A model generated the notes under the pieces. The model was given only the letters and a program-made list of their open reading frames with translations. It had not been told where the DNA came from and made no database searches. Made by a program: the position numbers and the translations under genes. A stretch of 64,000 nucleotides of DNA from Methanoregulaceae archaeon (GTDB taxonomy: Bacteria > Armatimonadota > Fimbriimonadia > Fimbriimonadales > Fimbriimonadaceae). This document shows positions 41,711-43,575 of the stretch, in pieces (the first letter of the stretch is position 1; each line of letters starts with the position of its first letter). The stretch spans positions 310,001 to 374,000 of the forward strand of contig JADZEW010000001.1 in the NCBI GenBank assembly GCA_020850325.1. The letters run 5' to 3'.

Positions 41711-41781
41711 CGGTCAGACAATTGTGGCAGAGTCCGTACGGTGGAACCGGGGACGATCACCCTTGATCCACCCGCACGATA

Positions 41782-42318
41782 TCAAACACCGAGCCAGGCG
41801 CGAAGCTCAGCCGACGCCACTGCGCCCACGGCGCTAGCGCATAGCTCGAGAGTCTCTCTGAGTGAGGCCTCAACGGCATCGAGCACGATCGCGTCGAAGT
41901 GCTGCCGATCGCCCAGCTTCTGCACACGTTCGAGCGAAGCGATGTACTCCGCGCGCCGCTCGACGGGGATCACGGCGATCGGGTAGCCGTGCCGTAGCAA
42001 GGCGAGGTTCAACAAGAGCCGACCGACCCGGCCGTTCCCGTCTTGGAAGGGGTGGATGGTCACAAACCGGACGTGCGCTTCAGCCGCCCAAAGAACAGGG
42101 TGGATCGATGAAGGCGTCTCCCACCAAGCCACAAATCCGGCCATCAGTTCAGCCCAGTGAAGGTGGTCGGGATACCGAAACTCGGTGCCCGCAGCCATGA
42201 CGTTCGGCCCCCGGTAGGCTTCAGCCGATCCGCTTTCTTGGCCCTTCATCACCAGACTGTGAACTTTCCGCACGGTGCGCTCGGTCAACGGTGCTTCGTC
42301 CCGAACAAGTTCAAGCAC
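41782..42318 (-). CDS. Fic domain protein, C-terminal catalytic part of a split gene
   Basis: 178 residues holding the Fic core. The motif HPFQDGNGRVGR (about 89-100) is intact: His for catalysis, Asp for magnesium, GNGR for nucleotide phosphates. Fic enzymes usually attach AMP to target hydroxyls. The reading frame begins at GTG 42316-42318, which overlaps the TAG of the upstream half in the string TAGTG. Homology runs straight across the join: adding one base to restore a Tyr codon gives HREALHYVLELVRDEAPLT, the expected Fic sequence. So this is either a decayed gene or a two-piece system with translational coupling. Confidence 0.75.
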   Translation of the reverse strand: MLELVRDEAPLTERTVRKVHSLVMKGQESGSAEAYRGPNVMAAGTEFRYPDHLHWAELMAGFVAWWETPSSIHPVLWAAEAHVRFVTIHPFQDGNGRVGRLLLNLALLRHGYPIAVIPVERRAEYIASLERVQKLGDRQHFDAIVLDAVEASLRETLELCASAVGAVASAELRAWLGV

Positions 42319-42566
42319 TAGTGCAGCGCCTCACGGTGGCCGATGACCTCGAAGTGCTCCTGAAGCGACTTGCCCCCGATGGTCACTCCCTTTTCGAGAA
42401 CGATTTGCGTTTCGCTTTGGGTGAGCGTATTTCCCTCAATCGCGGTCGAGTGGTAGGTCAGCCGCACTTCGAAACGCTGTTGAAGTTCCGCAAGGACATT
42501 GCTGGGCAACGGGCGAAACCCGTCCAGCCAGGCCTTCGCCTGGGTGACTTCTTCGAGGCGGTTCAT
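42318..42566 (-). CDS. Fic N-terminal part with inhibitory-helix motif
   Basis: 82 residues corresponding to the Fic_N region. TYHSTAIEGNTLT (about 37-49) contains the [S/T]xxxE[G/N] motif of the inhibitory helix, whose Glu normally blocks ATP binding in the Fic site. A good Shine-Dalgarno (AAAGGGGGAG) precedes ATG 42566. The frame stops at TAG 42318-42320, exactly where a one-base deletion would separate it from the catalytic half. If both pieces are made, the arrangement mimics class I Fic systems, where the inhibitor is a separate small protein. Confidence 0.7.
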   Translation of the reverse strand: MNRLEEVTQAKAWLDGFRPLPSNVLAELQQRFEVRLTYHSTAIEGNTLTQSETQIVLEKGVTIGGKSLQEHFEVIGHREALH

Positions 42567-42587
42567 GCGCTTCTCCCCCTTTGCGCT

Positions 42588-43157
42588 TCATTCATGTGGT
42601 TTTGCAACTGTGGCAGAGTCAGCTCTCACTGTTGAGACGACGCACGAACTGCAGAAACAGGGCGGACTGGCCCTCTTCTTCGGCCCAGCGTGCGATTCGA
42701 TCGAGGTCGATCGGGTGAGCAGAGGCCACCGCCACAGCCTGACGTAGGCGCTGTGGTCTCGACCATAGAAGAACCAGGCGAGGCGGTCACGTACGCAGTC
42801 GGTTGGAGAGATGATGTGTAGGCGATTTCCACCTTCCTCCAACGTGTCCCACGTGTCAATGGAGTCGTCGCCCACGGCAAGGGGTCCCGCAGGGAACTCG
42901 ACGGTGTAGGGGCACGCGGGATGGCCGTACGTGCCGCCCCGTTCAGCAAACCCAAGAGCTCTCATTGGGCCGTCCGAGACCTGCCCGTCTACGGACCATA
43001 GCGCGAAAATGAAGTCGAGATCCCGCGACTGGTGGGCTTCGGGAGCATAGATCGTCGCAGCTCCACCGCCCGAGAGGACCACCGTCTCGCCAGCGTCGTC
43101 AAAAGCGGTACATACGAGGAACGCGAGCTCGCGCAGTGTCGTGCTCGCCCCGATCAT
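42588..43157 (-). CDS. nucleotidyltransferase-fold protein, frameshifted near its C terminus
   Basis: A nucleotidyltransferase resembling AbiEii/MenT or MNT-type toxins. The signature VVLSGGGAATIYAPEAHQSR, then DLDFIFAL (about 26-53), has the Gly-rich and DxD parts. The frame reads to 42588 (189 residues), but after about residue 138 (RDHSAY) it becomes Arg/Ser/Cys-rich nonsense. Shifting one base at about 42741 gives QAVAVASAHPIDLDRIARWA and a natural end at 42619, so one base is probably missing from a Val codon. The active-site half is unaffected. The start overlaps the winged-helix gene stop (ATGA), making a two-gene operon. Confidence 0.72.
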   Translation of the reverse strand: MIGASTTLRELAFLVCTAFDDAGETVVLSGGGAATIYAPEAHQSRDLDFIFALWSVDGQVSDGPMRALGFAERGGTYGHPACPYTVEFPAGPLAVGDDSIDTWDTLEEGGNRLHIISPTDCVRDRLAWFFYGRDHSAYVRLWRWPLLTRSTSIESHAGPKKRASPPCFCSSCVVSTVRADSATVAKPHE

Positions 43158-43498
43158 AGCGCCTTACCCGCCCGCCTCGGGCGCCGCCGGAGCTCTTCGA
43201 GCTTAGACTGAAGTGACGCATCTTGGGCACCAAGCCGATCAAGGAGGGCGACGAGTTCGCCGAGCGCCGGGAAGCGGGGGTTCAGACGCAGACGCCTTGC
43301 GCGCCCTTCCTCGATGCCGATAATCAGTCCGGCTCGCTCTAAGCTGTCAACCGCCGATTGAACACGGCTTAGGCTTCTCTCGAGCACGCGAGAGAGTTCA
43401 GATGCATGGGTCTCACCCATCATGTTGATAGCGAGCAAGGCACTTGTTCTCAAAGGTGAACCAAACACTCCGACCGACGGAACAACCATATCACTCAT
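43154..43498 (-). CDS. winged-helix transcriptional regulator, likely autorepressor/antitoxin
   Basis: A 114-residue DNA-binding protein. Residues about 15-80 form a winged helix of MarR/ArsR-like type: RTSALLAINMMGETHASELS, the recognition-helix segment RSLSRVQSAVDSLERAGLI, then the wing IEEGRARRLRLNP. The C-terminal 30 residues are a charged helix (LQSKLEELRRRPRR) that may dimerise. A perfect 36-bp palindrome ends 2 bases before its ATG, so autorepression is expected. Translational coupling to a nucleotidyltransferase resembles AbiE-type toxin-antitoxin operons, where the antitoxin is a winged-helix repressor. Confidence 0.75.
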   Translation of the reverse strand: MSDMVVPSVGVFGSPLRTSALLAINMMGETHASELSRVLERSLSRVQSAVDSLERAGLIIGIEEGRARRLRLNPRFPALGELVALLDRLGAQDASLQSKLEELRRRPRRAGKAL

Positions 43499-43500
43499 AT

Positions 43501-43536
43501 ACCCGAAAATCGGGTGATATCACCCGATTTTCGGGT
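43501..43536. promoter_or_regulatory. perfect 36-bp palindromic operator
   Basis: The two 18-base halves are exact reverse complements. Each half contains its own small inverted repeat CCCGA-N3-TCGGG, so there are two operator-like half-sites around a GATATC centre. It sits between the divergent winged-helix gene (ATG 2 bases away) and dCMP deaminase gene (52 bases away). Confidence 0.8.
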
Positions 43537-43575
43537 TGATAACTAAGGTGACGAACGGTCCTTAACGGAACGCGT

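Follow-up and report, generated by a model that had tools for sequence, protein, structure and literature searches.

Only a few toxins act by adding nucleotides to RNA, among them the nucleotidyltransferase (NTase) toxins AbiEii and MenT. In HEPN-MNT systems, the MNT protein is the antitoxin. AbiE systems combine a winged-helix autorepressor, inverted repeats in the promoter and a partner with the NTase fold, and they are carried on mobile elements (PMC3985639, PMC7319586). AbiE motifs I-IV are hG[G/S], Arg plus DhD, KLxAaxxR and +DxxD (PMC3985639). The substrate of MenT toxins is given as tRNA (PMC10435456, PMC11541572), and a Ser or Thr residue of these toxins is phosphorylated when they are restrained by their antitoxins (PMC11375011). 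PDC-M05 is a candidate pair of a nucleotidyltransferase and a HEPN protein (PMC12988326). Here we describe a winged-helix/NTase gene pair in a 64-kb stretch of DNA (the window, that is, the whole stretch analyzed). On balance, we consider it probable that the pair belongs to a widespread, mobile, toxin-antitoxin-like family and that the copy in the window has decayed.

The gene pair in the window and its surroundings

The features of the locus are collected in Table 1. An earlier note on this DNA had described a 114-residue winged-helix gene and an NTase gene that overlap by ATGA and lie under a palindrome. Both the overlap and the palindrome, a perfect 36-bp inverted repeat, were confirmed. 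The same note gave the NTase about 180 residues and an end at 42619. The end holds, since a stop codon is present there, but the gene is not one open frame. When the frame is read mechanically, it covers 42588-43157 and encodes 189 aa, of which only residues 1-137 match the family, and homologues from plasmids can be aligned to it only up to residue ~137. Similarity to the family spans 43148-42747 in one frame and 42771-42628 in a second one. The frameshift deprives the NTase of its C-terminal helices, including Q138, W156 and E160, each of which is 99-100% conserved in the family. The neighboring Fic gene is also frame-broken, at ~42318, where TAG and GTG overlap (TAGTG); its FIC and inhibitory motifs are recognizable. 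Other long genes of the window appear uninterrupted, which favors decay at this locus over a poor assembly. Judged from these frame breaks in the NTase and in the adjacent Fic gene, the copy of the pair in the window is probably dead.

That the window copy is now a functionless relic is thus a fairly probable explanation, and it is compatible with our main explanation of the family. The two frameshifts among uninterrupted long genes and the removal of three conserved residues support it. However, the winged-helix gene and its predicted operator are intact, the NTase retains its conserved active-site part, and a sequencing or assembly error is a possible source of the frameshifts. Moreover, a relic accounts for the window copy and not for the family.

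In a sister species (G001), the 87% identity of the flanks reaches the positions corresponding to 41734 and 43566 of the window. The winged-helix/NTase pair is absent from this genome, the one genome of the same genus that was searched. On the dapD side of the site, the translated open frames of the sister species resemble HsdM, HsdS and a TIR-domain protein, and on the deaminase side it has an HsdR-like frame (L122 3159-7141 and L123 2-1705); these identities were read by eye from translations, without a profile search, and the two sides lie on different contigs. With a type I restriction system at this place in the sister species, the dapD-deaminase site is an insertion spot used by defense genes. 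The earlier note saw a small defense or growth-control islet, with the Fic gene beside the pair. The defense-type insertion site bears this out, but the Fic gene is an incidental neighbor outside the module: a functional partnership was rejected, with a Fic motif in only one of 109 other stretches searched. Of the two copies of the 12-mer GACTCTGCCACA, copy 1 lies upstream of dapD, where the sister species has it too, and copy 2 overlaps the NTase stop codon. Their position on both sides of the Fic gene suggests that this gene may have entered with a short duplication. We rejected the 12-mer as an insertion site because the second copy in the sister species sits in an unrelated gene; at most, the 12-mer marks a local duplication. 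A sigma-70 promoter scan and an Rfam scan of the islet gave no relevant match.

The palindrome lies between divergent genes and ends 2 bp before the winged-helix start codon. Its motif CCCGAWWWTCGGG (a 13-bp core with an A/T center) has no other occurrence in the 3.5-Mb genome. We compared the 80 bp upstream of 100 homologous loci with dinucleotide shuffles. A palindrome that beat 95% of the shuffles was found in 46 of the 100 regions (about 5 expected), and 32 regions reached the floor of p ~0.01 (about 1 expected). The palindrome of the window is among the strongest of the set. The palindrome sequences vary between groups (for example, AGGTCATATGACCT and GACGTGATATCACGTC), a pattern that resembles that of dedicated autorepressors. 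A terminator was rejected, given the position between divergent genes and the palindromes that also precede homologues. The palindromes argue for regulation, not for antitoxicity.

Table 1. Positions of the features of the islet, numbered from the first letter of the window.
Feature	Position	Strand	Remarks
Whole islet between dapD and dCMP deaminase gene	41735-43565	.	flanks 87% identical to sister species
12-mer GACTCTGCCACA	41723-41734 and 42609-42620		flanks Fic gene; exactly two genome copies
Fic-domain gene, class II	41782-42566	-	inhibitory STAIEGN near N-terminus; intact FIC motif HPFQDGNGRVGR; two frames
NTase-fold gene (predicted toxin)	42619-43157	-	frame-broken between ~42747 and 42771
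NTase, first frame	42747-43157	-	family residues 1-137, with GG...SxDxD...E and PTDCVRDRL
NTase, second frame	42628-42771	-	C-terminal helices, ~48 family residues; TGA at 42619-42621
ATGA stop/start overlap of winged-helix and NTase genes	43154-43157	-	4 bp
Winged-helix repressor (predicted antitoxin) gene	43154-43498	-	114 aa, intact; basic C-terminal tail RRRPRRAGKAL = residues 104-114
Perfect 36-bp palindrome, predicted operator of winged-helix protein	43501-43536	.	two 15-bp ACCCGAWWWTCGGGT units spaced 21 bp

Pairing, spread and mobility of the family

An alignment query retrieved 357 relatives from genomes, and the best 80 of these were used; it also retrieved 10 loci on viral contigs. 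When the broken window NTase (P0002) was the single-protein query, the viral scan gave no match, and tblastn of phage records also gave none. However, the window winged-helix protein (P0001) and P0002 do have counterparts in PHROG, in families 18520 and 13263 of unknown function.

For the analysis of pairing, 101 loci were chosen by NTase similarity alone, and the winged helix was sought by profile in the 900 bp upstream. A winged-helix gene lies upstream in 99 of the 101 loci, which exceeds chance: 97 were detected by the profile and two more (L009 and L013) once the loci were oriented. The remaining two fall into a sister group of DUF6036-like NTases. The genes overlap by exactly 4 bp in 67 of 97 homologous loci; a few loci show wider gaps between the genes, perhaps because of start-codon errors. 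The winged-helix protein and the NTase diverge together (Mantel r 0.81; 0 of 2000 permutations).

The named loci come from at least 21 NCBI phyla. Starting from the window NTase, we detected plasmid copies in Bdellovibrio, Sulfurospirillum, Sulfurimonas and Leptospira, and prophage-like occurrence was also seen. Intact pairs are present, for example, on the Bdellovibrio HAGR004 plasmid (BFD69056/BFD69057) and in Sulfurospirillum SP. Nearly all plasmid homologues of the NTase have a winged-helix gene of 109-120 aa directly upstream. In Leptospira noguchii plasmids, the winged-helix gene is frame-broken in L006 (2605-2932) and the NTase gene in L007 (2989-3560). In the phylum of the window, the distribution is patchy, with the NTase in 34 of 291 genomes. 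The neighbors are not shared: 139 neighbor genes fall into 122 Pfam families, none of which occurs more than four times. Only a few of them encode restriction or candidate-defense proteins, and no clear enrichment beside known defense genes was seen. Because the immediate neighbors have nothing in common, the pair is a discrete two-gene module that moves on its own, outside metabolic operons. The earlier note had named homologous pairs always embedded in metabolic operons as evidence against its reading, and this is not what the neighbors show. As a small two-gene unit that is mobile, patchy and independent of its neighbors, the pair has the layout and distribution expected of a toxin-antitoxin system.

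The NTase has no name in Pfam, NCBIfam or PADLOC. In the open-access literature, we found no description that names the winged-helix/NTase pair, although an earlier one may exist elsewhere; the accessible part of the study of MNT modules by Makarova et al. 2009 (PMC2701414) does not list it. The pair is widespread and not a local oddity.

The two proteins and their proposed functions

The winged-helix proteins of the family have a median length of 110 aa. Beyond the winged helix, they possess just two helices and a basic tail, without a second domain, in agreement with the minimal regulator described previously. The structural model is ArsR/MarR-like. A metal-sensing ArsR protein was rejected, with no conserved Cys or His (highest column 13%). 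The C-terminal tail, R-x-RPRR-x-GKPL, is nearly invariant: R104, R106, P107, R108 and K112 are 99-100% conserved across phyla, and the conservation exceeds that of most of the winged helix itself. Because this segment is so conserved although it lies outside the folded domain (low pLDDT), it probably binds something, and the partner NTase would be the obvious candidate.

For the NTase, we used the intact homologue L024. Its predicted structure (pLDDT 96.8) consists of the NTase fold with four helices after it. Among solved structures, the nearest are 5uvd, ANT(2'')-Ia, TM1012, MenT1 in complex, Mimivirus poly(A) polymerase, MenT3 and CCA enzymes, all of them remote (TM about 0.5; MenT1 complex 8an5, TM 0.56). 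Thus the predicted fold is that of a nucleotidyltransferase, as had been claimed; no other fold was seen, and it is equally near aminoglycoside nucleotidyltransferases and MenT toxins. The GG...SxDxD...E motif is almost invariant in the family: G31, D47 and D49 are invariant, S45 is conserved in 97% and E85 in 91% (Asp otherwise). G32, P116-T117, D122-R123-L124 and D132 are also invariant or nearly so. The family therefore possesses the GG/GS, the DxD and the third carboxylate of the polymerase-beta NTase fold, that is, a full set of catalytic residues. From the model and these residues, the second gene encodes a predicted DUF6036-like, polymerase-beta-fold nucleotidyltransferase.

A regulator and an enzyme in one operon might also be a repressor-controlled antibiotic nucleotidyltransferase, with the winged helix acting as a sensor and derepressing an enzyme akin to aminoglycoside adenylyltransferases. 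The ArsR/MarR-like model and the presence of ANT(2'')-Ia among the closest folds fit this explanation, and Makarova et al. 2009 (PMC2701414) raise the same alternative for MNT modules. Nevertheless, we regard it as unlikely. The winged helix has neither a ligand-binding domain nor conserved Cys or His, its most conserved part is the basic tail, which is unexpected in a sensor, the similarity to the ANT fold is only TM about 0.5, and a resistance-gene context is not repeated among the neighbors.

We propose the following mechanism for the toxin-antitoxin-like module. A dimer of the winged-helix protein would bind the palindrome beside its own start codon and repress the operon. The same protein would double as the antitoxin by docking its flexible tail on the NTase. 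If the winged-helix protein were lost, by plasmid loss or phage shut-off, the NTase would be set free and would add nucleotides to RNA, most likely to tRNA 3' ends as MenT does, and growth would stop. The toxicity of the NTase and its neutralization through the tail are inferred, and an RNA (probably tRNA) substrate is suggested by MenT. In the window, where the C-terminal helices of the NTase are lost by the frameshift, only repression may persist. By position, S45 is probably the counterpart of the Ser or Thr that is phosphorylated in restrained MenT toxins, so antitoxin-induced autophosphorylation is possible. We therefore offer a more specific idea, as a tentative one that we hold to be doubtful at present: the pair may be a new toxin-antitoxin family with a single-domain repressor, whose tail docks in the active site of the NTase or next to it and either masks this site or triggers phosphorylation of S45. 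If the toxin-antitoxin reading holds, the family would be a separate branch of NTase toxin-antitoxin systems with the simplest architecture, with repressor and antitoxin within about 110 residues. The short conserved tail peptide would then be a candidate inhibitor, which bears on how diverse antitoxins restrain NTase toxins. The annotation of many "hypothetical proteins" would also change, because this unnamed NTase is found on plasmids and across at least 21 phyla.

Comparison with known systems

The winged helix is shared with a PADLOC model: all 82 of the 82 winged-helix proteins match PDC-M05A (best 1.6e-12). P0001 is colinear with the first ~106 residues of this 201-residue model. Because the match covers the first half, PDC-M05A may be a winged-helix-NTase fusion, as judged from the alignment. 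PDC-M05 and HEPN-MNT systems are likewise two-gene modules that contain an NTase. In contrast, our pair has no HEPN protein, and its NTase is separate, larger and encoded in the second position. No HEPN family is among the 25 most frequent families of the 139 neighbors, and PDC-M05B was matched in one of the 139 neighbors and in none of 61 relatives (in the latter search, the model matched nowhere). Thus, the pair may share its regulator with PDC-M05 but use a different enzyme arrangement. The PDC-M05A matches, which link the winged helix to MNT-HEPN systems, also speak for a protein-modifying function: the NTase would nucleotidylate its partner or a further toxin, like type VII HEPN-MNT systems, and would itself be the antitoxic or regulatory part. 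We consider this quite improbable. The conserved module lacks a HEPN gene, the conserved R-x5-H of the NTase (R123, H129) resembles HEPN only superficially, with H129 conserved in 80% and replaced by Tyr in the window, and no Tyr, Ser or Thr that could accept AMP is conserved in the tail.

The NTase is nearest to DUF6036-like proteins: its profile matches that of such proteins from the same phylum over nearly the full length (99.8%, E 5e-29, 157 columns). Weak matches to DUF2204 were found in 22 of 79 members, and the paired NTases are below both Pfam cut-offs in the cases shown. Five DUF6036-like proteins (L019, L020, L180, L181 and L182) form a sister group without a winged-helix partner. 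L181 is preceded by an overlapping gene for a 75-aa basic protein, which could be another kind of antitoxin. The genome of the window also has a separate gene (L143; G000:C38:3194-3640), distinct from the pair, that passes the Pfam cut-offs for DUF6036 and AbiEii.

MenAT1 (Rv0078B-Rv0078A) and the other MenAT systems resemble the pair in having a compact NTase of ~180-190 aa and a small antitoxin. Two residues before its DxD, the NTase of the pair has the conserved S45, probably at the position of the MenT phosphoacceptor (T39 in MenT1). However, MenA1 (7.4 kDa) has no winged helix (PMC11375011), whereas the candidate antitoxin is a winged-helix protein. MenT toxins belong to DUF1814, to which our family has only a 42-column profile match.

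AbiE (AbiEi/AbiEii, COG5340-DUF1814, type IV) was the system proposed in the earlier note. The gene order and the operator logic agree: both are two-gene operons with the regulator first and inverted repeats over the promoter, and both share a winged-helix (predicted) autorepressor, an NTase-fold partner and spread on mobile elements. A further trait of AbiE is that the partner neutralizes the toxic NTase without a stable complex. However, the regulator of ~110 aa lacks the C-terminal antitoxicity domain of AbiEi, and the NTase has ~180 aa, compared with roughly 290-320 aa for AbiEii proteins of relatives. None of the 79 NTase members matches AbiEii/DUF1814 (PF08843) at E<=0.01, and profile-profile comparison with six AbiEii proteins gave 51% over only 42 columns. 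The NTase possesses GG and DhD, but the position of the motif II Arg is Tyr in 97%, the motif III Lys is replaced by the invariant Arg123, and there is no clear motif IV +DxxD. Direct membership in AbiE was therefore rejected on profile, motifs and the absence of the AbiEi C-terminal domain. By analogy, the best reading is that the pair works like AbiE and MenAT without being a member of AbiE.
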